Assembly: GCF_021044625.1 (NCBI RefSeq)
Contig: NZ_CP087999.1
Span: forward strand, 389,001 to 453,000
Reading direction: 5' to 3'
DNA: 64,000 bases
Origin: Geomonas sp. RF6
Lineage (GTDB): Bacteria; Desulfobacterota; Desulfuromonadia; Geobacterales; Geobacteraceae
Made by a program: the position numbers and the translations under genes
Part shown: positions 33,940-53,543 of the stretch, one piece after another
Position numbering within the stretch: position 1 is the first letter of the stretch
Layout: each line of letters opens with the position of its first letter
Notes under the pieces: generated by a model
What the model was told of the DNA's origin: nothing
What the model saw: the letters and a program-made list of their open reading frames with translations, nothing else
Database searches by the model: none

Positions 33940-34061
33940 GTAGTCCTCTCGGCTGCGAAGGTTGAAGGCTCTGGCGGGTACCTCGGGGGGCCACCCCCGC
34001 CCTCGGCGGCTGGGCGATAAGGCAAAGAAGGTGAACAAAGAGAATCGGCCTTGTCCCGCGT

Positions 34062-34560: not shown

Positions 34561-34603
34561 CTACTCCGGTTCCTGAGATTCCCTGGTGAGCCTGCATCAA
34601 CAT

Positions 34604-38042: not shown

Positions 38043-39149
38043 ATGAGAAAGCTGTCGCTTTTGTCACTGTGCATTGTCATCACTGTCGCTCTTTTGGGGA
38101 TCACGGCCTCGCAGGCAGCCCGAAAAGAAACGCTCAGGATCACCTGTTGGGAAGGGTACGCTGACGCCGCCATCGTGAAGGAATACAAGGCGTTGGTGAA
38201 GGCGAAGTACGGTATCGACGTCGACGTGCAGACGCACTACCCCACCGACCAGGACGAGTTCTACCAGGCAGCGAAAAATGGTACCGCCGACCTCATCTCA
38301 CCGCCAGCTGACCTCGCCAAGACCCCGCGCTTCAACTGCTTCCAGCAGGGGAACTTCCTCCTCTCGGAGGTGGATCTCAAAAACATCCCCAACGCACAGA
38401 AGATGATCCCCTTCTTCCAGGCGGACCAGTCCCTGATCCACAAGGGGAAGCGCTACGGCGTCCCGTACAACTGCGGGCCGTACGGGCTCGATTACAACAC
38501 CGAGATGGTGCAGGAGCCCCCGCAGAGCTGGAACGTCCTGTGGGACCCGCAGTACAAGGGGAAGTACACCATCAACAACAACTTCTGTAAGTGCAATATC
38601 TGGATCACCGCCCTCTCGCTCGGGTACCGTTACGACCAGATCTTCGATATCGAGAAGCTCGACCGCCAGAAGGTCCAGGAGAGGCTGAACGTTCTCGCAC
38701 AAAACGCCTACAGCTTCTGGGACGGCTCGGCCAAACCGGAGGAGTTCCCGAAGCTCGCGCTCGCGACGGACTGGGGTTTCGCTGCCGCGCAGGCAAACCA
38801 GAAGGGTGGCAAGTGGATGGTCGCCGCTCCCAAGGAAGGGGGCACAGCCTGGATCGACTACTGGTGCATAACGAAGGCAGCCGCAAAGGGGACGAAGAAG
38901 AAGCTCTGTGAGGAATGGATCAACCTGCAGCTTTCCCCGAAGGCCCAGGCAGCGGTCGTAAAAAAGCAGGGGGTCTCCCCCGTGGTCAATCTCGCCGAGG
39001 GTCTCGTGACCCCGACGGAGAGGACCCTGTTCCACGTGGGGGACAACGACTACTTCAAGACCGTGGCGATCTGGCAGGTCATGAGCGAGAAGACGGAGAA
39101 GGCGTACGCCGAGATGTGGGAGACGGCAAAGGCCACCAGAAAGAAATAA
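38043..39149 (+). CDS. Periplasmic solute-binding protein, polyamine (PotD/PotF) type
   Basis: 368 residues from the ATG at 38043, chosen for its AAAGGAGGAGG site and signal peptide (hydrophobic core LSLLSLCIVITVALLGI, cleavage after SQA). The mature start TLRITCWEGYAD matches the SBP_bac_8/PotD fold; PPADLAKTPRFNCF and VPYNCGPYGLDYNTE are typical hinge regions. No cognate permease of the Pot type is adjacent; instead the next genes are an outer-membrane protein and the exported EutB-EutC fusion. It could deliver or sense a small amine such as ethanolamine in the periplasm. Confidence 0.85.
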   Translation: MRKLSLLSLCIVITVALLGITASQAARKETLRITCWEGYADAAIVKEYKALVKAKYGIDVDVQTHYPTDQDEFYQAAKNGTADLISPPADLAKTPRFNCFQQGNFLLSEVDLKNIPNAQKMIPFFQADQSLIHKGKRYGVPYNCGPYGLDYNTEMVQEPPQSWNVLWDPQYKGKYTINNNFCKCNIWITALSLGYRYDQIFDIEKLDRQKVQERLNVLAQNAYSFWDGSAKPEEFPKLALATDWGFAAAQANQKGGKWMVAAPKEGGTAWIDYWCITKAAAKGTKKKLCEEWINLQLSPKAQAAVVKKQGVSPVVNLAEGLVTPTERTLFHVGDNDYFKTVAIWQVMSEKTEKAYAEMWETAKATRKK

Positions 39150-39235
39150 CCTGACGCAGTGCCAGCAAAGACTGGATGAAGAGACGGAAGCCGACACACT
39201 GAGATGCACCACCTAAAATGAATCAGGAGGGGAAA

Positions 39236-40060
39236 ATGAAGGTATCGCTTAGACTGTTCTCTTTGAGTTTCCTTGTTCTACTGGCGATCTGCATGGGGTC
39301 TGAGTCACGCGGGGAGGACCTTACCGCAGAGAAGCACCCGTCCGCAGCTGCCGAGGCTCCCAAGCCGGGGATGAAGGAGATCCCCGAAGACCTGAATGCC
39401 GATCTCAACGTCTCGTTCTACTCCAAGTACGTCTGGCGCGGCTACGAGCTCAGCAAGGACAGCCTCGTGATCTTCCCGACCGCGACCGTCGGCTACAAGG
39501 GATTCGCAGTGAACCTGTGGGCCGACATGGACACCCGCTTTTACGGCGGCCCCGACAAGGAGTTCAAGATCCAGGAAACGGACGTCACCGTCTCCTACAG
39601 CAACGCCATCGCGCCGTTGAAGCTCAACTACTCGCTGGGATGGATCTACTACAACTACCAGCCAAACAAGAACCAGGAAGTCTTTGCGACCTTCACCTTC
39701 GACACGATCCTGAAGCCGACCTTCTGCGTCTATAACGAGATAGAGATCGGGCAGGCCTGGTACTTCCTCCTCGGCCTTTCCCACAGCATCCCCGTCTACA
39801 GAGACTTCTCCCTCGACCTCGCCGCTACCGTCGCCTATCTGCACGACAAGTCCGAGCCTTCCGACTTCTCCAACTTCCACGACGGCAACCTCACCGTCGG
39901 CATGAAGATCCCGCTGAACAAGTACCTCTCGGTGTCGCCGCGGGTTCAGTACTCCTTCCCGCTCAACGAGCACGCTCGCCGCGAGATCCGCGATCTCAGC
40001 TTCACCAAAAACGACTCCGACTTCGTGTACGGAGGCCTCGTCTTCGACCTGGCGATATAG
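39236..40060 (+). CDS. Outer-membrane beta-barrel protein (TorF/Gcw_chp type)
   Basis: 274 residues from the ATG at 39236, with a CAGGAGGGG site. Signal peptide ends near ESRGE. The mature part has the N-terminal barrel signature NVSFYSKYVWRGYELSKDS of the TIGR02001/TorF family, followed by alternating strands (VGYKGFAVNLWADMDT, LKLNYSLGWIYYNY) and a C-terminal GGLVFDLAI with terminal hydrophobic. It lies 46 bases before the fused ammonia-lyase gene and is probably co-transcribed, perhaps letting its substrate enter the periplasm. Confidence 0.82.
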   Translation: MKVSLRLFSLSFLVLLAICMGSESRGEDLTAEKHPSAAAEAPKPGMKEIPEDLNADLNVSFYSKYVWRGYELSKDSLVIFPTATVGYKGFAVNLWADMDTRFYGGPDKEFKIQETDVTVSYSNAIAPLKLNYSLGWIYYNYQPNKNQEVFATFTFDTILKPTFCVYNEIEIGQAWYFLLGLSHSIPVYRDFSLDLAATVAYLHDKSEPSDFSNFHDGNLTVGMKIPLNKYLSVSPRVQYSFPLNEHARREIRDLSFTKNDSDFVYGGLVFDLAI

Positions 40061-40106: not shown

Positions 40107-42389
40107 ATGAGACGATTACTTTTGATCACAGCGATGCTTTTCCTGGTGGTTCTCGGATTCGCGAGCACCAGCGGCGCCATCGTCATCAAGACCGTGAAAC
40201 CGGGTGAGGATGTCTTCAAGTACATGACCCGGGTGAAAGGCTCTTTCGACCAGACCCTGTACCGCCAGATCATCGGCGCGTCCAACGCCTTCAAGGAAGG
40301 TGACAAGACGATCGGCGTCGCCGCCGACACCAATGCCAGCAGGGAGAACGCCCGCAAGCTCCTGGCAAACACCACCATCAAGGACCTCTCCAGCCACCCC
40401 CTTTTGAACGACAACCTGTACAAGTTCGCCAAGGATTCGGTGGACGCGGCGCAGTACGAAAAGATAAAGAACTGGCCCCTGGGCAAGATGAAAAGCTTCC
40501 TCCTCACCGCTTCCGAGACGCAGATAAAGTCGGTCATGTACGGGATGAACTGCGAGGTCGTCGGCTGCCTGCCGAAGCTCATGAGCAACAAGGAGCTGAT
40601 CGCGGTGAACCGGAAGATCTTCAATCCGCTGCCGGGTACCAAGATCGGCGCCAAGGGGTACCTGAGCGCGCGCATCCAGCCTAACTCCCCGACTGACGAT
40701 CCGGAAGAGATCCAGTGGCAGGTGCTGGACGGCTTCGCCTATGGGGTAGGCGACCTCGTGCTCGGCACCAATCCGGTGGACGGCACCAAAGAGCAGACCG
40801 CACGGGTCGAGACCGCGCTGAAAGAGGTGGTCGACGCCTTCCAGCTGAACGGAAAGCTCCCCTGGTGCGTGCTGGCGCACATAGACGTGCAGCGGGAGAT
40901 CTACAACGAGAAACCCGAGCTCGTGAACATCATGTTCCAGAGCCTTGCCGGAACCGACGCCGCCAACAAGACCTTCGACATCACCGTCGACAAGATGGTC
41001 GACCACGCCAAGTCGCGCAAGGGACAGAAGTACGGCCTCTATTTCGAGACCGGTCAGGGCTCCGACTTCACCAACGGCGCCGCGGAAGGGGTGGACATGG
41101 TCGTCCTCGAGTCCCGCAAGTACGGGATGGCGCGCGGCCTGAAGCAGATCCTCGCCCAGGTGGAGCCCAACGGCGCCTACGTCCACCTGAACGACGTGGC
41201 CGGCTTCATCGGGCCGGAAGTGTTCAGGACGAAGGAGCAGCTGGTACGCTGCTGTCTCGAAGACATCCTGATGGGCAAACTGCAGGGGATCACCATCGGC
41301 CTCGACATCTGCTCGACGCTGCACATGTCGGTCAGCCTCGACGACCTGCAGTGGTGCCAGGACCAGATCATGGCGGCAAACCCCGCCTACCTCATGGCGC
41401 TCCCCACCCGGAACGACCCGATGCTCAGCTACCTCACCACGAGCTACCAGGACCACGTCCGGCTGCGCAGCAAGTTCGGTTACAAGGTAAACGACGTCAT
41501 GTGGGACTTCTTCAAGCGCATCCAGGTCATCGACGCCAACGGCAAGCCGACGAAACACTTCGGCGACCCGGTCTGGGTGTACTACCAGTTCCAGAAGGCG
41601 AAGGGTGACACCCGCACGCAGCAGGCGATCATGGCGGAAGGGAAAAAGAAGTACAACGAGATCCAGACGACCTGGCTGAAGACCGGAAACAAGGTCCCCC
41701 TCGCATCCGGATACGGCAAGAACTATTGGGATCCCAACCCGCAGCTCGACAAGCGGGTGCGCGAGCTCTACGCCGACGCCAAGAAGGCGATCTGGTCCGA
41801 GTTCTCCCCCGAGTTTGTGAAGAAGATCCCCGACTCCGTCCAGCTCGCCACCCTCTCCAAGGACCGCGAGAACTACATCGTGCATCCGGAATCCGGCGAG
41901 AAGCTGAACCCGCAGTCGGTGGCGACGCTGGAGAAGCTGCGCGACGCGTGGCAGGGGAAAGTGCCTGACGTGCAGATCGTGGTCTCCGACGGCCTGAACG
42001 CGAACTCCATCATGGATCCGGACCATGTGTTGCCGTACATCACGGCCCTCAGGGAAGAGCTCCAGGCCTCCGGCCTCACGGTGGACAAGAACACCATCGT
42101 GATCAACAGCGGCCGCGTGCGCGCCGGGTACATGGTAGGGGACATCCTCTACGGAAAATCAGATCCCAACAAGCCGCGCGCCATTGTCCACATCATAGGG
42201 GAGCGTCCGGGCACCGGTCAGAACGCCTTCTCCGTGTACATCGCAGCTCCGAAAGGGCAAGTGTGGCAGGAGCAGAAGTGCGACCACAACATGGTGAAGG
42301 TTGTGTGCGGCATCTCCAAGCAGGCCACGAAACCGAAGGATGCGGCGAAGCAGACCGTGAAGCTCCTGAAGGGGCTTATGTCAACGTAG
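40107..42389 (+). CDS. Exported ethanolamine ammonia-lyase, EutB-EutC fusion
   Basis: 760 residues, strong AAAAGGAGG site. Residues 1-24 form a signal peptide (MRRLLLITAMLFLVVLGFAS, cleavage near TSGA); normal EutB has none. Residues 65-500 match EutB: GVAADTNASRENARKLL, YLSARIQPN, GVGDLVLGTNPV, YFETGQGSD, MGKLQGITIGLD. By alignment to the E. coli enzyme, its five active-site residues are all kept: R189, Q191, N222, E314 and D400. Residues 615-755 match EutC: PDVQIVVSDGLNANSI, GRVRAGYMVGDILYG, IIGERPGTGQNAFSVY (cobalamin-binding region). The linker (500-615) has no obvious domain. EutBC uses adenosylcobalamin to convert ethanolamine to acetaldehyde and ammonia. Fusion and export are both unusual; an amino-alcohol other than ethanolamine is possible. 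Confidence 0.9.
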   Translation: MRRLLLITAMLFLVVLGFASTSGAIVIKTVKPGEDVFKYMTRVKGSFDQTLYRQIIGASNAFKEGDKTIGVAADTNASRENARKLLANTTIKDLSSHPLLNDNLYKFAKDSVDAAQYEKIKNWPLGKMKSFLLTASETQIKSVMYGMNCEVVGCLPKLMSNKELIAVNRKIFNPLPGTKIGAKGYLSARIQPNSPTDDPEEIQWQVLDGFAYGVGDLVLGTNPVDGTKEQTARVETALKEVVDAFQLNGKLPWCVLAHIDVQREIYNEKPELVNIMFQSLAGTDAANKTFDITVDKMVDHAKSRKGQKYGLYFETGQGSDFTNGAAEGVDMVVLESRKYGMARGLKQILAQVEPNGAYVHLNDVAGFIGPEVFRTKEQLVRCCLEDILMGKLQGITIGLDICSTLHMSVSLDDLQWCQDQIMAANPAYLMALPTRNDPMLSYLTTSYQDHVRLRSKFGYKVNDVMWDFFKRIQVIDANGKPTKHFGDPVWVYYQFQKAKGDTRTQQAIMAEGKKKYNEIQTTWLKTGNKVPLASGYGKNYWDPNPQLDKRVRELYADAKKAIWSEFSPEFVKKIPDSVQLATLSKDRENYIVHPESGEKLNPQSVATLEKLRDAWQGKVPDVQIVVSDGLNANSIMDPDHVLPYITALREELQASGLTVDKNTIVINSGRVRAGYMVGDILYGKSDPNKPRAIVHIIGERPGTGQNAFSVYIAAPKGQVWQEQKCDHNMVKVVCGISKQATKPKDAAKQTVKLLKGLMST

Positions 42390-42400
42390 GCGCCTCATAC

Positions 42401-42432
42401 CCCCAAGGAGGCAACGCACCGCCTCCTTGGGG
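42401..42432 (+). terminator. Strong hairpin after the EutB-EutC gene
   Basis: A perfect 12-bp stem (CCCCAAGGAGGC/GCCTCCTTGGGG) with an 8-base loop, starting 12 bases after the stop codon, is followed by CTTT but no T-tract. It may partly terminate transcription or protect the upstream mRNA, so the enzyme would be made in excess over the downstream transport and maturation genes. Confidence 0.6.
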
Positions 42433-42493: not shown

Positions 42494-43357
42494 ATGAAAG
42501 AAGAGCAACAGTTGGCACAATCGGAGTATGCCCCTCCTGCACTGTCAAAGCCGGTGGCATCCTCTGAGCACATCGCTCCACTGTCCCAGCCGGCGGCTCC
42601 CCCGGATTACGTCACCCCTCCCCTGTCGCAGAAGATAAAGCTCTATATTGCCGCGCTCCTTTCCGTGTGCTTCTACCGCTACGGGGAGATCGGCAACATC
42701 TGCTACACCATCGGGAAAAACATCCTCGACGGCGTCATCCTGTACACCATGTTTTCCATGGCGGAGGAGCAGCTGAAAGTCGCGGCGATCCTCGGCGTGG
42801 TGGTGAAATACGCCTATCCTGGAATCAGCATGATCTCCAGCACCTGCATTTCCGGCTATATAGATCACCTGGAGGCAACCCACGACCCGAAAACGCAGAT
42901 CGCGCGGCTCATCAGGGCGCAGCTCGGGGTGGCGACGGGGCAGTCGCTGGGGGCGATATGCCTGCTCCTTTGCTTCCCACCCGTATTCATGTACTTCTTC
43001 GGAGCCGTCTCCTTCAAGCCTCACCTCCTGGTGCTGATCTATCTGCTCCATCACGTGTGCGACGGCTCCGCGCAGATAGTGGAAGGAAGGACCTGGTTCA
43101 AGATCATCGAGATAAAGATTCGCAAGGGAGAGGACAAGAGGCTGTCACGGAACTTCTGGGTCATCTACACCCTCGCGCAGAACTTCCAGCTTTTGCTCGG
43201 GCAGCTCTTCATATGGGGGACGCTCGCCATGACCACGGAATTTTCCCCCAATCTGACGGCGCCGCTTCTGAGCGCGACCGTCTACACCGGCTTTCTCTGC
43301 GTCGTGGCGTCGAAATTCATACTGCCGGCCATGTACAAAATGAGGCTCTGCTCGTAG
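42494..43357 (+). CDS. Multi-pass integral membrane protein (unknown)
   Basis: 287 residues. After a Pro/Ala-rich, hydrophilic N-terminus (about 1-50), there are about six hydrophobic segments (for example LYIAALLSVCFYRYG, LGAICLLLCFPPVFMYFFG, LLLGQLFIWGTLAM). Between them are short charged loops (EIKIRKGEDKRLSRNFW). No transporter family is recognised. It lies 104 bases after the EutB-EutC gene and 20 bases before an ABC ATPase, so it probably works with them, perhaps as a permease or a membrane component handling substrate, product or corrinoid. The start at 42494 has only a weak ribosome site. Confidence 0.7.
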   Translation: MKEEQQLAQSEYAPPALSKPVASSEHIAPLSQPAAPPDYVTPPLSQKIKLYIAALLSVCFYRYGEIGNICYTIGKNILDGVILYTMFSMAEEQLKVAAILGVVVKYAYPGISMISSTCISGYIDHLEATHDPKTQIARLIRAQLGVATGQSLGAICLLLCFPPVFMYFFGAVSFKPHLLVLIYLLHHVCDGSAQIVEGRTWFKIIEIKIRKGEDKRLSRNFWVIYTLAQNFQLLLGQLFIWGTLAMTTEFSPNLTAPLLSATVYTGFLCVVASKFILPAMYKMRLCS

Positions 43358-43377: not shown

Positions 43378-44139
43378 ATGCTCGAACTGGACGGCATCGA
43401 ATTCGCCATAGACGGCACGAAGATCCTCGACGGCATCTCCGCGAGATTCGAGGGGGGGAAGATCCACGGCATCATCGGGCCGAACGGCTCCGGCAAATCG
43501 ACGCTGCTGAAGACCATCTGCAGGATATGGGAGCCGCAGTCCGGGACAATCAGCATAAACGGCAGGGACAACAGGACGATATCGAGGAAGGAGCTCAGCA
43601 CCCTGGTGACCCTTGTCCCGCAAAACACCTCCATCGGCTTCCCGATCTCCGTCTTCGATGTCGTCTCCATGGGGCGCAACCCGCACCTGCAGCGGTTCGA
43701 GGGGATGCGGCAAAGGGACCGGGAAATAATAGAGCGGGCGTTGCGGCAAACGGGTATCGAACCGCTGAAGGAGAGGAACATAAACGAGCTTTCCGGCGGT
43801 GAGGGACAGCTCGCCATAATCGCCCGGGCGATCGCCACGGAGGCGGAGCTGATCCTCCTCGACGAGCCGACCTCGGAGCTCGACGTGAGACACACCCTCG
43901 ATATATTCGGGATCCTCGACCGTTTTCGCGAAGAGGGGAAGACGATCCTGGTAAGCATCCACGACCTGAACCTCGCGAGGAAATTCTGCGACACCATCTC
44001 GATCCTCTGCCGCGGCAGGCTCTTTTTTTCCGGCACGCCCGAGGAGGCCTTCTCGGAGGAGAACATACGGCAGGTGTTCGAGGTGAACGTGAAGGAATAC
44101 AGGGTGGAGGAGACGACGTTCCTCGAGTTCGCGCGATAA
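43378..44139 (+). CDS. ABC transporter ATPase, BtuD/FecE type
   Basis: 253 residues. Walker A GPNGSGKST (about 35-43), Q-loop LVPQNTS, signature LSGGEGQLAIIARA, Walker B LILLDEPTSELD and H-loop SIHDLN are all present. The sequence is closest to ATPases of corrinoid/siderophore importers (FepC/BtuD family). A binding protein and a FecCD-type permease of the same transporter follow at 44543 and 45615, separated from it by inserted repeats. Within this island a corrinoid (vitamin B12) importer would serve the B12-dependent lyase. Confidence 0.88.
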   Translation: MLELDGIEFAIDGTKILDGISARFEGGKIHGIIGPNGSGKSTLLKTICRIWEPQSGTISINGRDNRTISRKELSTLVTLVPQNTSIGFPISVFDVVSMGRNPHLQRFEGMRQRDREIIERALRQTGIEPLKERNINELSGGEGQLAIIARAIATEAELILLDEPTSELDVRHTLDIFGILDRFREEGKTILVSIHDLNLARKFCDTISILCRGRLFFSGTPEEAFSEENIRQVFEVNVKEYRVEETTFLEFAR

Positions 44140-44204
44140 AGCACAGTATCCTTACTTCCGAGGCCCCCGGGAGCGTATGCGCACCAGGCAGTGCGCGACA
44201 AACT

Positions 44205-44338
44205 CGCTACAAAGAACCCGGGTGCCCCCGCGCTGGAGCGTAGGCATCTTGCCTGCGATGGCGGCGCAGCCGCCACAGACCGCGCGGCTGGCGCCGCGGC
44301 TACAGGCTGGGAAGCCTGTGCTCCAGCGCGGCGCCACT
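44205..44338 (+). repeat. 134-base inverted repeat element, copy 1
   Basis: This starts CGCTACAAAGAACCCGGGTG and ends GCTCCAGCGCGGCGCCACT; the GCGCTGGAGC and GCTCCAGCGC ends pair, and the interior also folds. The copy at 54277-54409 differs by only about three positions (two substitutions, one deletion). Located between the ABC ATPase and its binding protein gene. Confidence 0.85.
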
Positions 44339-44423
44339 GATGGTACTTAGGTATGACCGGCAGGTATTGTTGGAAACGGATGCGGTTCTGGAGGAGATAT
44401 TTCGGATATGCCGGCAAAGACCA

Positions 44424-44542
44424 AATCCCCCCTGTCCCCCCTTCGCAAAGGGGGGGACGTTAGGCCTTCTGCAGTGCTTCGTGGCAATGTATCGACGCCT
44501 CCCCGGAAAATCCGGATGAACCTTCGCAAAGGGGGGGACGTG
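44424..44542 (+). repeat. Composite repeat supplying a possible ribosome site
   Basis: A copy of the roughly 120-base family also seen at 34.1-34.6, 52.3 and 54.5 kb. It contains the CCTTCGCAAAGGGGGGGACG core twice and ends GTGATGGCC; that ATG (44543) is the first start codon of the binding-protein gene. The same GTGATGGCC end is in the copy at about 34550, so the element brings its own Shine-Dalgarno-like purine run and start codon. Confidence 0.7.
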
Positions 44543-45607
44543 ATGGCCTCTATCCCCCGCCATCCGGATAAACCAGCAACAAGTGCCATGGGAGCATTCC
44601 TGCTACACGCACTGCTTCTGGTCTGCTCCATCATCTTCTGCGCGACCCATTCGGAGGGAGCCGATCAGAAGGCTCCCCTCGACCTGGAGAGGCTGAGAAC
44701 GGAGCTGAGCCTGGTCCGTGGGACCGGAAAGACGCAAGGGGGATGGCCGCGGGAGATCCGCTCTCCACTCAAGACCTACGACTTCAAAAGCGACACCTTC
44801 CGCCAGGAAGGACGAACGCTGCTAGTGCAGAAGAAGCCGCTACGGCTGATACCACATTCCGTCGGCGTAGCCGAGATCCTGTGGGCGATCTGCCCGCGGG
44901 AGCGCCTGGTCGCGTTCAACGAGCTCTCCGCCGACCCGGAATCCAGCTTCATTGCAGCCGAGGTGCGCCAGCGCGGACCTATCTTCCGCTCGAAGGAGAC
45001 GGAACTCGTGCTCGGCTACCGCCCGGACCTCGTCTTTACCGTCTCCTATTCGAGCCCCGACTTCAAGGAGAAGCTCAGGCAGGCGCGCATACCGACCTTT
45101 GACCTCGGCTACTTCGGAACGATCGACTCCATAAAGGAGCAGATCGCCCTCATCGGCACCGTGATCGGAGAGGAAGGGAACGCCGCCGCGCTGGTGAGCC
45201 TGATAGACCGGAAGATGCGGGAACTGAAGACGAAGCTGCCGCGCAAAGGGCCGCCGGTGCGGGTGCTCTACTACGACGAGGGAGGCTACGTCCCCGGCGC
45301 CACGTCGAATTTCGACTCGATCTGCAGGATGATAGGCGCGGTCAATGTGGGGACGGAGCAGGGGATAAAGTCGTGGTCGCAGGTCGATTACGAAACGGTG
45401 CTGAAGTGGAACCCGGATGTGGTGGTCGTTCCAGCGCGGTCGAAGCTCAGGGACATCCTCATGTCCAGCCGCGTCCTCGCCCACGCCCGCGCCATCAGGA
45501 GCGGCGCCGTCTACTATGTACCCGGGGTGTATCTCCGGGCGTCGTCACAGTACATGCTCCTGAGCGCCGACTACCTCGCCGGGGTCATATACCGCCCCCC
45601 CCGCTGA
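44543..45607 (+). CDS. Corrinoid/siderophore-type periplasmic binding protein (BtuF/FecB family)
   Basis: 354 residues from the ATG at 44543, which is provided by the upstream repeat; an ATG at 44588 would start directly at the signal peptide (MGAFLLHALLLVCSIIF). The PBP fold of the BtuF type is seen in PHSVGVAEILWAIC, RLVAFNELSADPESSF, PDLVFTVSYSSPDFKEKL and YYDEGGYVPGATSNFDSICRMIGAVNV (the tail of the fold). It is the periplasmic partner of the ATPase at 43378 and the permease at 45615. A heme or iron chelate ligand is possible, but B12 fits the neighbouring lyase. Confidence 0.85.
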   Translation: MASIPRHPDKPATSAMGAFLLHALLLVCSIIFCATHSEGADQKAPLDLERLRTELSLVRGTGKTQGGWPREIRSPLKTYDFKSDTFRQEGRTLLVQKKPLRLIPHSVGVAEILWAICPRERLVAFNELSADPESSFIAAEVRQRGPIFRSKETELVLGYRPDLVFTVSYSSPDFKEKLRQARIPTFDLGYFGTIDSIKEQIALIGTVIGEEGNAAALVSLIDRKMRELKTKLPRKGPPVRVLYYDEGGYVPGATSNFDSICRMIGAVNVGTEQGIKSWSQVDYETVLKWNPDVVVVPARSKLRDILMSSRVLAHARAIRSGAVYYVPGVYLRASSQYMLLSADYLAGVIYRPPR

Positions 45608-45614
45608 AGCCGCC

Positions 45615-46643
45615 ATGCACAGAAAGGACTTCTTCCTCTTCATAGTGCTGGTGGCCCTCATCCTCGCGGGAGGGGTCATTTCGCTGTCCTCAGGTTCGTG
45701 GTCCGTACCGGCCTCCCATGTCCCTGCGATACTCCTGGCGAAGCTCGGACTCCACGGTGGGGTGGTGAACGATGTGGAGGCGGCGATCGTCTGGGACGGG
45801 CGGCTGCCGCGCTTTCTGGTCGCGCTTCTGGTCGGCTTTTCCCTCGGTGGCGCCGGCACCGTCATGCAGGGCATTTTCAAGAACCCTATGGCCAGCCCCG
45901 GTGTCATGGGGATCGATTCGGGAGCAGCTCTCGGGGCGGTGCTCTCCATCTACCTCGGCGTCGCCTCCGATTCGCTCGTGGTGCTCCCCTGCGCCGCGAT
46001 AGTTTTTTCGATCCTCACGCTGATCCTGGTCTTTGCCATCGCCACCTCCGGCGGGCGGACCTCGATCTCCACGCTGCTTCTGGCAGGGATCGCCCTGAAC
46101 CTCGTCTTCGGCGCGCTGACGTCGTTCATCATCACCCTCAGCACGCGGGAGTTCGACGTCGGGCGAGTCATCGTGAACTGGCTCATGGGGGACCTCAACA
46201 ACCGCTCCTGGGAGCACGTCAGTATCGTGGCCCCGACCACGCTCCTGGCGCTTCTGGGGACCCTCTTCTTCGCCAGGGACCTGAACCTCCTCATGCTCGG
46301 CGAGGAGACGGCGGCGAACCTCGGTGTCGATACCAAAAGGGCCCGCAACGCCCTCCTCCTCTTCTCCTCCGTTGAGACGGGGGGGGCCATCGCCGTCTCC
46401 GGCGTCATCGGCTTTGTGGGGCTCGTCGCGCCGCACATCATGCGCAGCCTCGTGGGGCCAGACAACCGCAAGCTCGTCTTCTTCTCGGGTCTACTCGCGG
46501 CGGTCTTCATAATCTACGCGGACCTCTTCGTCCGGCTCGTGGTGGCGGTCGACCTGAAGGTGGGGATCATCACCTCCATGCTGGGGGGGCCCTTCTTTCT
46601 CTACCTGATCATGAAACACAGAAAGCATTTCGAGTACATGTGA
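45615..46643 (+). CDS. FecCD/BtuC-type ABC permease
   Basis: 342 residues with about ten membrane helices, as expected for this family. Conserved BtuC/FecCD motifs are FSLGGAGTVMQGIFKNPMASPGVMGIDSG, LLLAGIALNLVFGAL, the cytoplasmic coupling-loop LGEETAANLGVD and GFVGLVAPHIMRSLVGPDNRKLV. It starts 7 bases after the binding protein and forms the transmembrane part of an importer with the two preceding ABC genes. The substrate is most likely a corrinoid given the context, otherwise an iron chelate. Confidence 0.9.
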   Translation: MHRKDFFLFIVLVALILAGGVISLSSGSWSVPASHVPAILLAKLGLHGGVVNDVEAAIVWDGRLPRFLVALLVGFSLGGAGTVMQGIFKNPMASPGVMGIDSGAALGAVLSIYLGVASDSLVVLPCAAIVFSILTLILVFAIATSGGRTSISTLLLAGIALNLVFGALTSFIITLSTREFDVGRVIVNWLMGDLNNRSWEHVSIVAPTTLLALLGTLFFARDLNLLMLGEETAANLGVDTKRARNALLLFSSVETGGAIAVSGVIGFVGLVAPHIMRSLVGPDNRKLVFFSGLLAAVFIIYADLFVRLVVAVDLKVGIITSMLGGPFFLYLIMKHRKHFEYM

Positions 46644-46685: not shown

Positions 46686-47708
46686 ATGAGGGAAAACGTG
46701 GCAACAGAGGTCGAGGTGGCGGAGCTCTTCGACCAGTACGCCGAAAGGGTCGAGCAGATAAAGGCCGAGATCGCCAAGGTCGTGATCGGCCAGGAGGAGA
46801 TGATCACCCTGATGATCCACACCCTCCTCTCCAGGGGGCACATCCTTCTCGAGGGGGTGCCGGGGCTTGCGAAGAGCCTCGCGGTGGAAACCTTCGCGAA
46901 AGTCATCGGCGGCAACTTCAAGCGCTTCCAGTTCACCCCTGACAAGATGCCGAGCGACATAACAGGCACCATGGTGTGGAACGAGAAGGAGAAGAAGTTC
47001 GAGTTTTACTACGGTCCGATCTTTTGCAACATCTTCCTTGCCGACGAAATAAACCGGGCCTCCCCGAAAGTGCAGTCCGCGCTGCTGCAGGCGATGCAGG
47101 AAAAGGAGGTGACGATAGAGCGCAAGCGCTACGACATCTCCCCCCCCTTCATGGTGCTGGCGACACAGAACCCGATCGAGCAGATCGGAACGTATCCGCT
47201 CGCCGAGTCGCAGGTCGACCGCTTCATGGTGAAGTACGACGTGGGATATCCGGGGAAGGACGAGGAACTGGAGCTCATCCTCAGGAAGAACACCGACTTT
47301 GACCAGCAGAAGGCGGAGATACGAAACATCCTTTCGCTCGAGGAGATAACGGCGATGCAGCAGCTCATCCACGACCAGGTCAGGGTGAGCCAGAAAGTCA
47401 TGGCCTACATCCTCAACGTCTGCACCGCCACCCGTCCGCGCGAGACCTACTCCCCCCAGGATCTCGTCGCGGAGATTCACCAGTACATCCGGCTCGGTGC
47501 CTCCCCCCGCGCCTCCGAATCGCTCCTCGCGCTGGCGAAATCATTTGCCTTCGGCCAGCACCGCGACTTCGTGAATTTCGACGACGTATCAGCCTGTGCC
47601 GCACACGTGCTGAGGCACCGGATACTGCTGAACAGCACCGCGTTGTCGCAGCAGATCGACTCCGACATGCTGGTGCAGGAAATCCTCAAGATGGTTCCAC
47701 CGTACTGA
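46686..47708 (+). CDS. MoxR-family AAA+ ATPase (MxaR-like)
   Basis: 340 residues. Walker A GVPGLAKS (57-64) in the GxPGxAKS form typical of MoxR, Walker B IFLADEINRA (D120, E121), sensor 1 region LATQNPIEQIGTYPL, and the C-terminal lid (DLVAEIHQYIRLGASPRASESL). MoxR ATPases remodel or activate proteins with VWA partners; MxaR is needed to activate periplasmic methanol dehydrogenase. Its stop overlaps the next gene's ATG by one base. It opens a six-gene block arranged as in mxaRSACKL. Confidence 0.93.
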   Translation: MRENVATEVEVAELFDQYAERVEQIKAEIAKVVIGQEEMITLMIHTLLSRGHILLEGVPGLAKSLAVETFAKVIGGNFKRFQFTPDKMPSDITGTMVWNEKEKKFEFYYGPIFCNIFLADEINRASPKVQSALLQAMQEKEVTIERKRYDISPPFMVLATQNPIEQIGTYPLAESQVDRFMVKYDVGYPGKDEELELILRKNTDFDQQKAEIRNILSLEEITAMQQLIHDQVRVSQKVMAYILNVCTATRPRETYSPQDLVAEIHQYIRLGASPRASESLLALAKSFAFGQHRDFVNFDDVSACAAHVLRHRILLNSTALSQQIDSDMLVQEILKMVPPY

Positions 47709-48592
47709 TGCCGATGGAGAAGACGGAAAAGACACTTTTATCGAAGAAAGAGCTTCTGGAAATCTTCGTGAATCATCGGGTCGACTCTCCCTTCCCAGGT
47801 GACTGGGAGAGTGTCTTCAAGGGGCTCGGGTACGAGTTCTGGGCGCTCAGGGAGCTCGAGCCGACCGACTCCTTCAAGAACATCGACTGGAAGGCGAAGG
47901 CGAGGACGGGGAAGTTCTTCGTGCGCGATTTCCTCGCCGAGAGCTACTTCAACGTCATGATCCTTTACGACGTCAGCAGGTCGGTGCAGTTCGGGAGAAA
48001 GGAGCTGCTCCAGGCGCACATCGCCGTCTCCCTCGCCTACAGCGCGATCGCAAGCAACGACGGCTGCGGGCTGATCCTCTTTGCGGATGACATCGTGAAG
48101 TACATCCCGCCGCGCATGGGGCGGACGCACTTCATGGAGATTCTCGATGCCATCGTGCACGCGGAGCCGGTGAGGTGCGGGGGGACGAGCCTTGGGCCCG
48201 CCCTGACGAAGCTCCTGAACGAGGTGCCGGAGAGTCTGACCTTCATACTCTCCGATTTCCTGTACCCGCTCGATTTCGGCTACACCTTTCATCACGCCGC
48301 GCAGGGCAGCACAAAGCACGAGGTGAAGGCGCTCCAGGTTCTCGAGGAGTGCGAGATCGCCCTTCCGCCGGGCACGAAGGGTATCCTTCCCCTCTACGAT
48401 TATGAGAGCGGCAGGACCGTGTCGCTCGACCTCACGAAGTGGCAGGCCTTCAACGACACCATGAGCCGCCAGCGGGAGGGGACGAGAACGCTCCTGGGGC
48501 GCGCGGGCATCGACCTCTTGACGGTAAGCCCGGCAGACGACTTTGGGCGGAAGATAAACAGCTTCATGAGAAGGCCCCCGTCAACCTACTAG
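47708..48592 (+). CDS. DUF58 protein (MxaS-like)
   Basis: 294 residues. The DUF58 core is clear: DWKAKARTGKFFVRDFLAE followed by a VWA-like segment ILYDVSRSVQFG, which keeps a D-x-S-x-S metal-site pattern. Further VWA strands are GCGLILFADDIVKYIPP and SLTFILSDFLYP. In methylotrophs the DUF58 protein MxaS acts with MxaR, and paired MoxR-DUF58 genes are common. The start overlaps the MoxR stop by one base (TGATG), which implies translational coupling. Cytoplasmic; it probably couples the ATPase to membrane VWA proteins. Confidence 0.88.
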   Translation: MPMEKTEKTLLSKKELLEIFVNHRVDSPFPGDWESVFKGLGYEFWALRELEPTDSFKNIDWKAKARTGKFFVRDFLAESYFNVMILYDVSRSVQFGRKELLQAHIAVSLAYSAIASNDGCGLILFADDIVKYIPPRMGRTHFMEILDAIVHAEPVRCGGTSLGPALTKLLNEVPESLTFILSDFLYPLDFGYTFHHAAQGSTKHEVKALQVLEECEIALPPGTKGILPLYDYESGRTVSLDLTKWQAFNDTMSRQREGTRTLLGRAGIDLLTVSPADDFGRKINSFMRRPPSTY

Positions 48593-48602
48593 CAGGTATG
48601 CC

Positions 48603-50396
48603 ATGAAGAAGTGTATTGCGATCATACTGCTCATTGTTGCCATGCTGGCGCATACCCCTTTCGAAGCGTGGGCACGAAGCGCCGCGCCCTTCTCCTTTGA
48701 CTCGCTCTGGTTCTACCGCGACGGCACGCGGGTGGTGCCCGAGATCGGAAAGCGCTGGGTCACCGTCGTCTTCGACTCGCGCTACCGCTCCGGCGCCGCT
48801 GATTTCCTCACCTCCGGCGAGGAGGAAGGAAACGTGATCCAGCGCAGGGCACGCGGGATGGTGAAGTCCCACAAAGCGCTCTCGAGCTACCTCTACGACC
48901 CGAACCTCGCGGAGGACGCCTGCTTTTTCAAGCTGCGCGACGGGGTGAAGCTCGACCAGATAGGGAGGCTCATCGGCGAGTTGAAAGGTGAGAGAGGGGT
49001 GCGCTACGTCCACCCCACCGTCATCATCGACAACAAGACCTTCGCCTTTTTCGACGACCTCGAACTGGAGTGGAAGACGGGAACCCCGAGGGCGCAGCGC
49101 GACTCCCTCCTGAAGGCCGCACATGTGGCGGCGGACGACAGGGATGAGAAGAGAAAGAGCTATGTCGTCGACCTAGCCGCCATCCCCTACTTCAGGGCGG
49201 TGAACCTCCTTGCCGAAGACGTGAAAGTCCTGAAGGTCGCCCCCCGCCTGGTGGAGATCAAGCCGTCCATAAGTGCCAAGCTCTCTTTTCTCATGGGGGG
49301 CGCGAACATCGGTGACAGCATCCCTTTTACCCTCACCATCGCCTTCTCCGACCGCGTAAGCATCGATCCCAGCTCCATAGCGACCCTCAACCTGAAGCCG
49401 CCGGAGCTGCAGAAGGAACTCTTCGACTGCACCTTCGATCCCTACGACTATGCAAAGGCGGTGGGGAAGAGCCCGATCATCATCACAGGACGGCTCAAGT
49501 TTTACGCGCCCGGAGAGTTCACCGTCCCGCCGGTGAAGATCAGCTACACCTGCCAGACGTGCACGAAGACTGCGAGCCGCTCGGTGAAGGCCAGCACCAA
49601 CAGCACCAACAGCACCGGCAGCACCGGCTCAGGGCAGAGCAGTGCGGTACCGATGCCCCCTCCCCCGCTGCCGGACGGGATAGCTGACACCGACAGCAGC
49701 GCGCCCCCCCCCGACACCTCGACGCCGCCGGATACCCTCCCTGCCGGGAGCCCCGTTTCCAGCACTAACGCGGTCACCGGCAGTGCGGCAGACAGCAACG
49801 TGCGCTTCGTGCAGACGCAGCCGGTACTTTTCAAGGTCTCCTCCATCATCCCGGCGGAAAAATCGGAGAACAGGCTCATCGTCCCGACCGCCCCCGTATC
49901 GGTCGACTTCCGGCTCCCCGCGCTGCACCAGCGGTCCCTGCGCTACCTGTGGCTCGGCATCTTCTCCCTCGCCGGTCTTTTCCTCTGCGTCGGCTGGTTC
50001 ATCTACATGCGCTACAGATTGATCCTCGAGAGGGACCGCACCAGGGAAGGGAAGAGGGACGGCATCCTCGTCGAGCAGCTGCGCACCCTGCTGCAGGAGC
50101 CGCCTTCGGCCCCTCACTGGGCGTATCTGGGTCGGGTAGGACTCTTGCTGCGCGAGTACCTGGTGGCGCTCTGCGGCGGGGACGCTAGGTTTCGGGGGGG
50201 GAGCGGCAGGCACTTCATGGAGAGGATGGGCTCGCGGCTGCCGCATGAATCGGTGGCACCGTTGACCACCATCCTTGCCGCCATCGACAACAGCGTCGCA
50301 ATGGAGACGGAGCACCATCAGGATATGGAGGCCCTGCAACGCGAGATCCTGGAGGTTGTCGAAGCCACGGCGCAGCGCTCGGCGGCCCAAGGGTAG
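48603..50396 (+). CDS. Membrane-anchored periplasmic protein, MxaA/BatD position
   Basis: 597 residues. A signal peptide (about 1-25, IILLIVAMLAHTPFEAWA) leads to a large periplasmic domain. A low-complexity Ser/Thr/Pro spacer (about 330-410; NSTNSTGSTGSGQS and PMPPPPLPDG) precedes one membrane helix (about 445-468, LWLGIFSLAGLFLCVGWFIYM) and a 125-residue cytoplasmic helical tail. BatD/MxaA-type proteins have the same topology, although MxaA is usually shorter. Two Cys pairs (KISYTCQTCTKT) may bind metal or form a disulfide. Its slot, between DUF58 and VWA genes, is that of mxaA. Function inferred from order. Confidence 0.75.
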   Translation: MKKCIAIILLIVAMLAHTPFEAWARSAAPFSFDSLWFYRDGTRVVPEIGKRWVTVVFDSRYRSGAADFLTSGEEEGNVIQRRARGMVKSHKALSSYLYDPNLAEDACFFKLRDGVKLDQIGRLIGELKGERGVRYVHPTVIIDNKTFAFFDDLELEWKTGTPRAQRDSLLKAAHVAADDRDEKRKSYVVDLAAIPYFRAVNLLAEDVKVLKVAPRLVEIKPSISAKLSFLMGGANIGDSIPFTLTIAFSDRVSIDPSSIATLNLKPPELQKELFDCTFDPYDYAKAVGKSPIIITGRLKFYAPGEFTVPPVKISYTCQTCTKTASRSVKASTNSTNSTGSTGSGQSSAVPMPPPPLPDGIADTDSSAPPPDTSTPPDTLPAGSPVSSTNAVTGSAADSNVRFVQTQPVLFKVSSIIPAEKSENRLIVPTAPVSVDFRLPALHQRSLRYLWLGIFSLAGLFLCVGWFIYMRYRLILERDRTREGKRDGILVEQLRTLLQEPPSAPHWAYLGRVGLLLREYLVALCGGDARFRGGSGRHFMERMGSRLPHESVAPLTTILAAIDNSVAMETEHHQDMEALQREILEVVEATAQRSAAQG

Positions 50397-50402
50397 CCCG
50401 CT

Positions 50403-51506
50403 ATGACGGTCGAGCACCCATGGGCACTCCTTCTCCTGGCACTGGTTCCGGCGGTCCTCTTCGCCCGGAGAAAGGGGGCGGCGCGGACCGGATTTTCTGC
50501 CGTGCCGGCGCTCGGCCGGGAGCTGCAGCCAGGGCCGCTCAAGAAGTATGGGCCGGACGTGCTGGCCGCAAGTGCCATGGTTCTCATCGTCCTCGCCATT
50601 GCAAACGTGCAGTACTCGAGCTACTGGCAAAAGACGTATCCGGAGTCGAAGTGGATCATGCTCGTCCAGGACCTCTCCGGCTCCATGGGCAGGCCCAGCG
50701 ACGAGAGCGGCAGCATGACGCTCGGAGACGTTGCCCTGGAGGGAGCGTCGGCCTTCATCGACATGCGCAGGAAAGACGACCTCATCGGCCTCGTCGCCTT
50801 TTCCAACGTCGCGCAACTGGTGGCGCCACCCTCCTTCGACAAGGAGATCCTGAAGAAAAAGCTGGAGCTTTTGAGGAGAAAGAACGATTCCAGCGTCTTC
50901 AGGGAGCTGAGCATCGGGGGGGAAACCAACGCCTCCCACGCAGCGTGGCTTGCCACGTGCGTTTTTTTCATGCTGCTGCCCGAGGAGAGCCAGCCCTCCT
51001 ACGAGCAGCTCGACAACCTGCGTTACTCGCTGATGGGTCGCGGCGATGCGGCGGCAGCGATCCCCGCCGCGCTGAAAAAGATCAACTTCGGACGCGGCAT
51101 GGCCATCGTCCTTTTCACCGATGGCCGGATAGAAGCGAGCCCGGGAGGTGACGGCGCCGAAGAAGGGCTCCTCAACTTCGTCAACGTGATAGGGCTGGTG
51201 AAGCGGCTCGGCATAAAGCTCTATCTGATCGTAGTCGGAGGGGACGTCACCGCCGAGGTCCGCCAGGCTCTCGAGGGGCGCGCGGGGGAGTCTGCGGCAG
51301 GGCATATCTTCTACATGCCCCGCTCCCTGGACAGGTCGCAGATCACCGCGGTGTACAACCGCATAAACGAGATGGAGAAGAACCGGCTGCTGGTGAAGCT
51401 GGAGAAACGGAAAAAGGACACGAGGCGCCCCCTCGCGCTCACGGCTGCCGGTATTGTGGCTCTCTACTGCCTGATGCACCTCCTGCCGGCCACCAGAAAG
51501 ATATAG
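50403..51506 (+). CDS. VWA-domain membrane protein (MxaC-like)
   Basis: 367 residues with two N-terminal helices (about 7-22 and 53-70), a VWA domain exposed next, and a C-terminal helix (about 345-362). The metal-ion site D90-x-S92-x-S94 is in VQDLSGSMGRP; further MIDAS positions are GGETNA (Thr) and LFTDGR (Asp). Topology matches MxaC/BatA, in which the VWA domain lies between membrane helices. It follows the MxaA-like gene by 6 bases and precedes the MxaK-like gene by 3 bases. Confidence 0.88.
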   Translation: MTVEHPWALLLLALVPAVLFARRKGAARTGFSAVPALGRELQPGPLKKYGPDVLAASAMVLIVLAIANVQYSSYWQKTYPESKWIMLVQDLSGSMGRPSDESGSMTLGDVALEGASAFIDMRRKDDLIGLVAFSNVAQLVAPPSFDKEILKKKLELLRRKNDSSVFRELSIGGETNASHAAWLATCVFFMLLPEESQPSYEQLDNLRYSLMGRGDAAAAIPAALKKINFGRGMAIVLFTDGRIEASPGGDGAEEGLLNFVNVIGLVKRLGIKLYLIVVGGDVTAEVRQALEGRAGESAAGHIFYMPRSLDRSQITAVYNRINEMEKNRLLVKLEKRKKDTRRPLALTAAGIVALYCLMHLLPATRKI

Positions 51507-51509
51507 GCG

Positions 51510-52268
51510 ATGAAAATGAAAGAACCTGTGCGCATAGCATTGATCACTCTTTTGGCTCTCCTTTTCGTAGTGCTCGGGCTGTACAGCGCCCGCGAGTACG
51601 GCTCCGCCAGCGCGCTGGAGACGCAAAGGAGGCACCAGGAGCAGGAGCTGAAAAGAGCGGACGCCATGGAGGACGACAGTGCAGCCGCAACGGTGCTGAA
51701 GAAGCTGGCCCCGGCGCCTCCGGAGGTCGAGCTGCGCATCGTCCAGCGCCAATGGCGCATGGCGCTCGAGCTTCTCAAATACATGCAGCGGGCGCGGGTG
51801 AACGTGGAGTTGCAGAACGAGACGGCATCATACGGCACGAGACTGAAAGGGATTCTCGACGAGATGCTGGAGCGCACCGGAAGCGCGCTGGCAGATCCTT
51901 CCGCCGTGCGCCCCGACGTGTTGTGGCAGCTTTACAATGCCTCCGGATCGGCAAAGGTGCTGAGCGCACTGGTGATGCTCGAGGCCGAGCAGAATCTCGA
52001 CAAAGTGCAGGGGATCATGCGCGACGCCCTCGCCGACTACAAATCGGCAATAGATGCCGTCGACAAGGCCGGTGCCCCCGCAGAGCAGAGGAACGTGCCA
52101 CGCTGGAACTTCGAGGTATTGAACGGCAGGGAATACGTCCAGAAGTTCGACGTCGCCATGTCCGACACCGAGCGAAACCAGGCGCTGAAGGAAACCCTGG
52201 AAACCCTGATGCCCGAAATGGGCGGCTACGCCCCGGGCGAACCGATAGAGACAATCGTTAAGAAGTGA
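51510..52268 (+). CDS. Single-anchor periplasmic protein in mxaK position
   Basis: 252 residues. One N-terminal membrane anchor (about 9-27, ALITLLALLFVVLGLYSA) is followed by a helical region. YNASGSAKVLSALVMLEAEQNLDKVQGIMRDALADYKSAIDAV looks like TPR-type helices, followed by the VPRWNFEVLNG segment, which is similar to MxaK/TPR accessory proteins. No enzymatic motif. Its place between two VWA genes matches mxaK. Family assignment is by position, size and helical content, not by a specific motif. Confidence 0.65.
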   Translation: MKMKEPVRIALITLLALLFVVLGLYSAREYGSASALETQRRHQEQELKRADAMEDDSAAATVLKKLAPAPPEVELRIVQRQWRMALELLKYMQRARVNVELQNETASYGTRLKGILDEMLERTGSALADPSAVRPDVLWQLYNASGSAKVLSALVMLEAEQNLDKVQGIMRDALADYKSAIDAVDKAGAPAEQRNVPRWNFEVLNGREYVQKFDVAMSDTERNQALKETLETLMPEMGGYAPGEPIETIVKK

Positions 52269-52327: not shown

Positions 52328-52447
52328 CACGCCCCCCCTTTGCGAAGATCCATCCGGGAATTCCGGGGGAGCGTAGGTACATTTCCACGAAGCGCTGCAC
52401 GCAAACTTACGTCCCCCCCTTTGCGAAGGGGGGACAGGGGGGATTTG
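52328..52447 (+). repeat. Composite intergenic repeat between the mxaK- and mxaL-like genes
   Basis: This 120-base copy has the core CTTTGCGAAGGGGGGACAGG at 52419-52438, a GGGGGAGCGTAGGTACATTT stretch and a shorter core at 52328-52338. It lies in the 261-base gap before the last VWA gene and is inverted relative to the copies at 44.4 kb. No gene in the gap. Confidence 0.7.
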
Positions 52448-52529
52448 CCTTTGATGTAGGCCATTTAGCACAGCCCGCTCCCTTTCTCATGAACCCGAAA
52501 AAGCAGCCTGCCCCCTTTCTGGTACCGCC

Positions 52530-53543
52530 ATGACCGTAGAACAACCACATTACCTTTGGCTCCTCCTTGGCATCCCGATTTTCGCCATCGCCTCCTATTT
52601 CTCCTATCAAAACGCCAGCGCATGGCTGTACCGCTTCGCCCACATTAGAAAGCGCCCCCTCCCCTATCTGCTCACAACCGTTTTCCTCAGCCTCGCCCTC
52701 TGCGCCGTCATCCTCGCACTGGCAGAGCCGAAGGTCCAGTACACGAAGACCGTGTTCAACCGCAGCGGCATCGATGTCGCCATCGGCATCGACGTGTCCA
52801 AATCGATGCTCGCAGAGGATGAAGCCCTTCCCGAAGAAGACAGGAAGCTCTTTGCAGTACCAAACCGCCTGAACCGCGCCCGCTGCTGTGCCCTCAACAT
52901 CATCAGCGCCCTGCGCGGCGAGCGTGCGGCTGTCTTCATGTTTGCCAGCAAAGGTGTCTCCATCGTGCCGCTGACCAACGACTACGGCTACTGCGACTAC
53001 ATCCTCAAGCACTTCAACGATGCCACCATCACCATTCCCGGCAGCGACCTCGGCCAGGCGATCACCACCGGACTCTCCCTCCTTGAAGGATCTCCCCGCA
53101 AGACAGTGAAAAGCATGGTGCTCATCTCCGACGGCGAAGACATAACCGGCGACTCGTCTGCGATGTATCAAGCCGCACAACGCGCAGCAGGTGAAGGAGT
53201 TGCGGTTTACACGGTTGGCACCGGGATGGGACAGGGGGTACTCATTCCGATACGAAGCGGTGCGGGGACCGGGATAGAGGGGTATTACCAGGATGAGGAT
53301 GGATCGGTCCTAAAGACCCGCATGGAACCGGAGACATTGAAGGGGGTAGCCACCGCTACCGGAGGGGGATTCTTCCGCGCCGGAGAGACGCGTATCGAGG
53401 AGAGGATAGTGGATGCCATCCTGAAGCGTGCGCGGACTATGGAATACACCAAGGCAACCGAACCGGCGTGGTATCCGCTCGCCCCGGCACTCCTCGGCGC
53501 AGCGCTCCTTTTTTTCATGCTCAGCCTGATCACCGGGCGGTGA
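52530..53543 (+). CDS. VWA-domain membrane protein (MxaL/BatA-like)
   Basis: 337 residues, with two N-terminal helices (about 8-25 and 45-65), a VWA domain and a C-terminal helix (about 312-332). The metal site is D88-x-S90-x-S92 in IGIDVSKSM, with the later Asp in LISDGEDI and Thr in ITTGLS. It is the second VWA protein of the island, where mxaL sits in methylotrophs. It is separated from the mxaK-like gene by a repeat, and no further gene of the unit follows before the strand changes at 53676. Confidence 0.88.
   Translation: MTVEQPHYLWLLLGIPIFAIASYFSYQNASAWLYRFAHIRKRPLPYLLTTVFLSLALCAVILALAEPKVQYTKTVFNRSGIDVAIGIDVSKSMLAEDEALPEEDRKLFAVPNRLNRARCCALNIISALRGERAAVFMFASKGVSIVPLTNDYGYCDYILKHFNDATITIPGSDLGQAITTGLSLLEGSPRKTVKSMVLISDGEDITGDSSAMYQAAQRAAGEGVAVYTVGTGMGQGVLIPIRSGAGTGIEGYYQDEDGSVLKTRMEPETLKGVATATGGGFFRAGETRIEERIVDAILKRARTMEYTKATEPAWYPLAPALLGAALLFFMLSLITGR

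Follow-up and report, generated by a model that had tools for sequence, protein, structure and literature searches.

A fused EutB-EutC protein with a predicted export signal in Geomonas sp. RF6, probably an extracytoplasmic ethanolamine ammonia-lyase

Ethanolamine ammonia-lyase (EAL) is an adenosylcobalamin (AdoCbl) radical enzyme related to diol dehydratase, and enzymes of the AdoCbl radical class are regarded as cytoplasmic because their cofactor is made, protected and repaired there. Reductive dehalogenases are cobamide/Fe-S reductases, not AdoCbl radical lyases. They use a cobamide or corrinoid cofactor (PMC5500849, PMC10624902) and, as the corrinoid enzyme PceA bears a twin-arginine translocation (Tat) signal (PMC8905343), this group (PceA/RdhA) offers a precedent for a corrinoid enzyme with such a signal, although fold and chemistry differ from those of the protein described here. 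EAL itself is presented in a review as two subunits, EutB and EutC, accompanied by EutA and microcompartments (PMC5821096). Fusion of EutB and EutC is already in print: Pelobacter carbinolicus has two fused genes, eutBC1 and eutBC2, its strains grow on ethanolamine, and section 12 of the report names no eutBC other than the fused ones and leaves a signal peptide or export of eutBC unmentioned (PMC3543383). Searches of open-licence papers turned up none that linked ethanolamine ammonia-lyase to the twin-arginine route, to outer-membrane-vesicle proteomes or to a periplasmic site. The window analysed here, 64,000 nt of Geomonas sp. RF6 (contig NZ_CP087999.1, positions 389,001 to 453,000, forward strand), contains a single gene for such a fusion that begins with a predicted export signal (Table 1). 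From comparative sequence analysis, the product appears to be an extracytoplasmic single-chain EAL that uses a cobamide, probably AdoCbl (rough probability 0.72).

The frame of this gene is uninterrupted, encodes 760 residues and begins with ATG, a few bases 3′ of a Shine-Dalgarno-like aaaggagg. The EutB domain matches Pfam PF06751 (E = 6.6e-149; 496.9 bits, cut-off 25) and NCBIfam NF011649 (642.9 bits, above the cut-off of 554), and the EutC domain matches Pfam PF05985 (E = 1.6e-33; 116.4 bits, cut-off 25.8). A preliminary description of the locus, which had proposed one gene combining a signal-like N-terminus, a complete EutB and a EutC domain, is thus borne out by Pfam and by the sequence. 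Ratios of non-synonymous to synonymous substitution rates (dN/dS) were 0.059, 0.116, 0.091, 0.116, 0.083, 0.075 and 0.204 in seven pairs of signal-bearing relatives; two signal-less pairs gave 0.353 and 0.282. All were computed over the whole open frame, where untranslated upstream codons may raise some values. By these codon comparisons the signal-bearing lyases are under purifying selection and, since close orthologues also share the type of N-terminus, the gene is not attributed to chance; a chance frame or pseudogene is rejected on the open 760-residue frame and the low dN/dS.

AlphaFold2 (AF2) modelling from an alignment of 26 rows gave a predicted local distance difference test (pLDDT) score of 88.5 and a predicted template modelling (pTM) score of 0.86, residues 1–22 being the sole segment with pLDDT below 50. 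In a Foldseek search of PDB the best match was 3abo_A, E. coli EutB (E = 8.0e-32), with the small subunit 3abo_B eighth (E = 1.3e-11). Set against EutBC by VIA-align, both domains of the model match the EAL fold (3abo_A: Z 42.9, 434 aligned residues, 2.1 Å; EutC small subunit 5ysr_D: Z 24.1, 226 aligned, 2.6 Å), and diol dehydratases rank next (Z about 19). The E. coli active-site residues R160, Q162, N193, E287 and D362 had been equated in the preliminary description with R189, Q191, N222, E314 and D400, and HMMER alignment to 3abo chain A confirms these pairs. Loss of the catalytic residues was looked for in homologues, and all five were found to be identical in 92 of 92 relatives, and the same holds for the positions that pair with S247, V326 and F329, which we take to be near the cofactor. 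The lyase family keeps, at ≥90%, 61 of the 83 EutB positions whose conservation in a distant set is ≥95%. An intact EAL active site in this family is well supported by these comparisons. Fold and active site are thus shared with E. coli EutB/EutC (3abo), from which the Geomonas protein differs in being one chain with an export signal and a EutC part under the NCBIfam equivalog cut-off, in a genome with no match to bacterial microcompartment (BMC) genes and with only a short, partial EutA match.

The N-terminus, MRRLLLITAMLFLVVLGFASTSGA followed by IVIK, reads as a Sec-type signal peptide, with cleavage after SGA placed by inspection. It has RR at positions 2–3 and was labelled Tat by the first of two signal tests; it is called Sec because eight of the nine nearest orthologues (L003–L011) have KR or QR at this site, with RR in L011 only, and because the hydrophobic core is strong (3.14). 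The first test demanded an in-frame start followed by an uncharged 12-residue window with mean Kyte-Doolittle hydropathy ≥1.3 and net positive charge ahead of it, while the second added a twin-arginine rule and a laxer window and did not demand a start codon. Both were applied to a census of relatives with a tblastn score ≥500 bits and a closed 5′ end, 93 after identical cores had been dropped (L014, L031 and L148 were omitted for an open 5′ end, and L024 for an open 5′ end and low score). The first test was passed by 70 of the 93 relatives, by none of eight members of a fused sister clade and by none of 57 more distant EutB; for the second test the counts were 82/93, 0/8 and 1/57 (L090). Ten of the 12 relatives added beyond the first test have ATG, GTG or TTG no more than 40 codons ahead of the motif. 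By type, 56 signals are Tat-like and 26 Sec-like, after manual reassignment of L011 and L016 from Tat to Sec, and 11 relatives have none; many myxobacterial members have a lipobox-like ending on the signal.

The strongest argument for the proposed reading is that a single enzyme family bears export signals of two kinds while its active site is intact. Two unrelated signal types point to selection for export and speak against a chance hydrophobic start, and export of the family is well supported comparatively. It is not universal, because 11 of the 93 relatives lack a signal; the signal is best regarded as a strong tendency of the family. Of the functional exported lyase proposed in the preliminary description, export and the intact active site stand on good comparative support. 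What the analysis shows directly is the fused gene, the signal-like N-termini of most of the family, the active-site residues, the EAL fold of both domains and the gene cluster kept in the Sec lineage; export itself, catalysis, the substrate and its source, and AdoCbl as the cofactor are inferred, with a location outside the cytoplasm being probable.

Matches to the lyase at E ≤ 1e-100 were found in 19 of 395 genomes of the host phylum, in 13 of 343 from the phylum to which a planctomycete locus belongs, and in 56 of 195 of a Myxococcota sample, some of whose members have no signal; myxobacteria are under-sampled in the census, 30 loci having been taken from a larger number of matching places. 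Within the host order 23 of 141 genomes have matches, counting the fused sister clade and genomes already included above, and EutB of any type (E ≤ 1e-5) is present in 29 of the 147 genomes nearest the host, host included. A broad search matched at least 592 relatives, and close relatives among the best 80 of these (L032–L056) span six phyla: Thermodesulfobacteriota (including Geobacteraceae), Myxococcota, Planctomycetota, Bacteroidota, Acidobacteria and Pseudomonadota (Phyllobacterium, Pseudomonadales). In a tree of the EutB part, built by a quick method with ten distant EutB as outgroup, the 93 relatives lie on one side of a branch with Shimodaira–Hasegawa-like approximate likelihood ratio test (SH-aLRT) support of 99, adjoined by the fused sister clade of eight (SH-aLRT 99), with both apart from the outgroup; according to a warning of the tree program, the outgroup and L181 are points where long branches join. 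A single clade of 30 (support 90) contains all 26 Sec-type members, with four Tat-type members (L012, L013, L035 and L139) nested among them. The signal-less Myxococcota clade consists of L039, L189, L193, L196, L205, L208, L210 and L211, and at least one genome with a member of it (G530) additionally has one copy (L183) whose signal resembles that of a Tat lipoprotein.

Fusion is not confined to the 93 relatives. In the sister clade (L018–L023, L058 and L149; 35–40% identical to the lyase) EutB and EutC also share one frame, as they do in four of the 57 distant EutB (L067, L083, L084 and L088, from a planctomycete and from alphaproteobacterial records, about 30% identical), but unlike the Geomonas lyase none of these has a signal, by the second test in the distant four. 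H258 is replaced by D, and F290 by L or I, in all eight members of the sister clade. A claim that the fusion arose only once was dropped, because these four distant EutB, which the tree did not include, are fused as well. The preliminary description had taken the subunits of known EutBC enzymes to be separate, which fails as a general statement, given these two groups and the fused eutBC published for P. carbinolicus in 2012 (PMC3543383).

In the proposed mechanism the lyase would reach the periplasm through Sec here and through Tat export in most relatives. Once outside the cytoplasm, it would most likely cleave ethanolamine, or a closely related vicinal amino alcohol, to ammonia and an aldehyde, the substrate presumably coming from phospholipid head groups. 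With its two subunits fused, the enzyme could be exported as a single polypeptide, an idea qualified by the existence of signal-less fused forms. Tat-type members may be loaded with cofactor in the cytoplasm and then exported folded, and Sec-type members would be loaded after export; a porin, a heme/corrinoid-class importer and a MoxR-VWA module encoded beside the gene are candidates for cofactor supply and loading in the Sec lineage. Export signals on most close relatives, in several phyla, suggest that B12 radical chemistry may occur outside the cytoplasm. Should these proteins indeed be both exported and active, ethanolamine would be broken down at the cell exterior. The periplasm has no ATP for classical reactivation, and the same premise raises the question of how an AdoCbl enzyme is loaded and maintained where there is none, for which the importer and MoxR-VWA genes of the Sec lineage offer concrete candidates.

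Table 1 Main features of the lyase locus (window coordinates).
Feature	Position	Strand	Basis or remark
Solute-binding protein, polyamine type (PotD/PotF-like)	38043..39149	+	SBP_bac_6; PDB matches
TorF/Gcw_chp-like putative outer-membrane porin	39218..40060	+	Pfam Gcw_chp; kept beside lyase in relatives
EutB-EutC fusion, predicted to be exported	40107..42389	+	760-residue open reading frame; Pfam, AF2 model, PDB matches
Predicted Sec-type signal peptide, residues 1–24	40107..40178	+	Sequence, hydropathy tests, orthologues, low pLDDT
EutB domain, residues 52–483, with R189, Q191, N222, E314, D400	40260..41555	+	Pfam PF06751
EutC domain, residues 551–758	41757..42380	+	Pfam PF05985; Z 24.1 to 5ysr_D
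GC-rich 12-bp inverted repeat in gap between lyase and next gene	42401..42432	+	By eye; no T run
Conserved multi-helix membrane protein, no Pfam family	42494..43357	+	Kept in relatives; true start may be internal
ATP-binding cassette (ABC) ATPase, heme/corrinoid/siderophore importer class	43378..44139	+	Pfam ABC_tran; start by comparison with relatives
Peripla_BP_2 substrate-binding protein, heme/siderophore/corrinoid class	44588..45607	+	Start by alignment to relatives
FecCD-type permease	45615..46643	+	Pfam
MoxR AAA+ ATPase	46686..47708	+	Domain scan; kept near permease
DUF58/VWA protein	47708..48592	+	Domain scan
"BatD-like" protein, no Pfam match	48603..50396	+	Name from gene order only
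VWA-domain protein 1	50403..51506	+	Domain scan
Protein of MoxR-VWA run, no Pfam match	51510..52268	+	Position in run
VWA-domain protein 2	52530..53543	+	Domain scan

Upstream of the lyase, the polyamine-type solute-binding protein, whose start is the ATG after aaaggaggaggttct, has 11 PDB matches, including spermidine/putrescine-binding proteins. The porin gene stops 46 bases 5′ of the lyase and its product just exceeds the Pfam Gcw_chp cut-off (24.4 bits, cut-off 24), missing that of NCBIfam TorF (21.1 bits, cut-off 47.15). Downstream, the GC-rich inverted repeat is a possible attenuator or processing site. For the membrane protein that follows, nothing of note was matched in PDB or Pfam, and an AF2 model from three rows was unusable (pLDDT 46.8); in a 13-row alignment, and among the loci compared, this protein was seen only beside Sec-type exported lyases or fragments lacking the N-terminus. 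Its place in the cluster suggests a role for this conserved family. The importer genes share Pfam FecCD, ABC_tran and Peripla_BP_2 with BtuFCD/HmuTUV-class importers and miss the BtuC and BtuD equivalog cut-offs, with 274.8 of 461 bits for the best BtuC model and, for the ATPase, 233.6 of 537 bits for the best corrinoid ATPase model (NCBIfam). Repeat-like DNA at 44,140–44,590, also found near 33,700–34,600 and 52,400–53,180 and with frames reading PPLRKGG/PPFAKGG, makes the Peripla_BP_2 frame look longer at its start. In the MoxR-VWA run, the "BatD-like" protein opens with a signal-like stretch and has a hydrophobic segment farther along. Pairs of MoxR and VWA proteins with a cobamide target are not known to us. 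Such pairs insert the metal cofactor in nitric oxide reductase (PMC9976466, PMC13036017), and the present module, likewise a MoxR AAA+ ATPase and VWA proteins beside a cofactor enzyme, resembles the NorQ/NorD type in domain content. The P. carbinolicus eutBC loci share with this one the fusion, the lack of eutA, and neighbours encoding a periplasmic binding protein, a multi-transmembrane protein, a corrinoid-like metal ABC transporter, VWFA proteins and an ATPase, but differ in having two eutBC copies with cobalamin biosynthesis genes between them (PMC3543383).

Porin, membrane protein and ABC genes accompany the lyase in 21 of the 26 Sec-type loci, in none of the 56 Tat-type loci, many of which (L169–L211) were examined over only about 1.5 kb on each side, where a more distant cluster would be missed, and in none of the 11 signal-less loci. 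The Sec-type loci without the cluster are L015, L016, L034, L134 and L143, the last with a solute-binding protein gene nearby, and the four Tat-type members nested in the Sec-containing clade also lack it. A statistical claim for this association is rejected, as Fisher's test (p = 3.6e-15) ignores descent; significance is out of reach because the loci are related and give only two independent contrasts. A MoxR gene lies near the permease in 12 of 13 genomes in which the available stretch reaches the permease, Geomonas sp. RF6 included (L033 lacks it). Among the Tat-type loci searched, a MoxR-DUF58 pair was seen about 4.5 kb farther on in one planctomycete locus (L052), and clustering of neighbouring genes revealed, among the groups listed, no cluster common to most Tat-type members. 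Near the lyase of one genome of the same order (L121, 12,020–13,057, minus strand), a lipoprotein-like protein has a start that resembles, by eye, glycerophosphodiester phosphodiesterase; such a protein could release ethanolamine outside the cell.

The hypothetical part of this cluster in cofactor loading is drawn from gene order. A more elaborate scheme would have AdoCbl radical catalysis taking place outside the cytoplasm in several phyla, with Tat lineages exporting pre-loaded enzyme and the Sec lineage having substituted periplasmic loading through a dedicated cluster (porin, importer, membrane protein and MoxR-VWA) that supplies cobamide, the ATP-driven MoxR-VWA module acting across the membrane to insert or exchange the cofactor in place of EutA; taken as a whole, this scheme is speculative and doubtful.

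The lyase is the sole EutB in the single-contig 5.26-Mb host genome, in which no matches to BMC shell genes were found (2 of 14 control genomes were positive). One EutA match (29.8 bits, Pfam cut-off 27) covers only 46 of 475 positions, in a 418-residue frame, and is read as another actin-fold ATPase. The FecCD permease of the locus is the only protein of its kind above the Pfam cut-off in the genome. No cobalamin riboswitch was detected at Rfam gathering scores in the window or in nine related loci. The one cobalamin riboswitch in the genome (C1:2132544) precedes cobU-, cobT-, cobS- and cobC-like genes, recognised by eye, and for this reason the host is probably able to synthesise cobamide itself. 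No gene was assigned as a BtuB-type receptor; the genome has seven TonB-barrel matches, six of them above the cut-off and none in the window, which were not named further.

Several observations weigh against an exported EAL. The C-terminal part has diverged, falling short of the NCBIfam EutC equivalog NF003971 (90.2 bits, cut-off 230), and is EutC-like, below the curated equivalog; of 29 EutC positions conserved at ≥90% in a comparison set (the 41 of 57 distant loci with detectable EutC), only 14 are retained at the 90% level among 85 relatives. The signal calls are hydropathy and twin-arginine heuristics, the second of which needs no start codon: L017 lacks ATG, GTG and TTG in the 40 codons that precede the motif, and L016, which owed its pass to an upstream pair, is Sec-like by reading only. 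Of the 11 relatives that lack a signal, two come from the planctomycete sample and the other nine are Myxococcota, eight of these belonging to a single clade. Full-length EutA is present in only 2 of 41 genomes with this lyase family; it is also absent from all five genomes with a distant EutB, and lack of EutA as a family-specific trait is rejected on that ground. The best PDB match of the permease is the heme permease HmuU, scoring above BtuC, so that a firm identity as a corrinoid transporter was dropped after the PDB profile search, with only the below-cut-off NCBIfam names suggesting corrinoid specificity. Finally, the P. carbinolicus authors propose that ethanolamine is taken up by the neighbouring proteins (PMC3543383).

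Among the alternatives, the one that survives best is an exported EAL-type lyase acting on another amino alcohol or amine, such as 2-aminopropanol, choline or a polyamine-derived compound. The 22 of 83 EutB and 15 of 29 EutC conserved positions that are not kept at 90% are consistent with a shifted substrate, as is the polyamine type of the solute-binding protein in the cluster; it is nonetheless unlikely, since all five active-site residues are kept and direct evidence for another substrate is lacking. Less probable again is a non-catalytic, extracytoplasmic cobamide-binding protein descended from EAL, which would scavenge corrinoid (e.g. hydroxocobalamin) or hand it over to the ABC importer. 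Such a role would fit the adjoining heme/corrinoid-class importer with its unique FecCD permease, the scarcity of full-length EutA and a periplasm without ATP for reactivation, but would leave the active site retained in 92 of 92 relatives to be accounted for, and likewise the 56 Tat-type members with no importer cluster beside them and the growth of P. carbinolicus strains on ethanolamine with only fused eutBC named (PMC3543383). A cytoplasmic lyase, or one anchored with its enzyme part inside by a hydrophobic N-terminus that is not a working export signal, would agree with the signal-less relatives and sister clade and with the uptake proposed for P. carbinolicus (PMC3543383), but is very improbable, as twin-arginine motifs, myxobacterial lipobox-like endings and Sec-like signals on one family are then hard to explain, the signal controls were almost all negative (0/8 and 1/57), and a Shine-Dalgarno-like sequence precedes the long start. 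An extracytoplasmic EAL thus remains the preferred reading.

Two further genes on the plus strand of the window lie outside this cluster. PocR is a regulator of B12-linked catabolism, and a histidine kinase that bears a PocR sensory domain at its N-terminus as well as a receiver (30,183–33,029) is a possible regulator of the cluster. A protein encoded at 61,980–62,870 has a signal-like start and two stretches that match the DUF1259/DUF1529 model.

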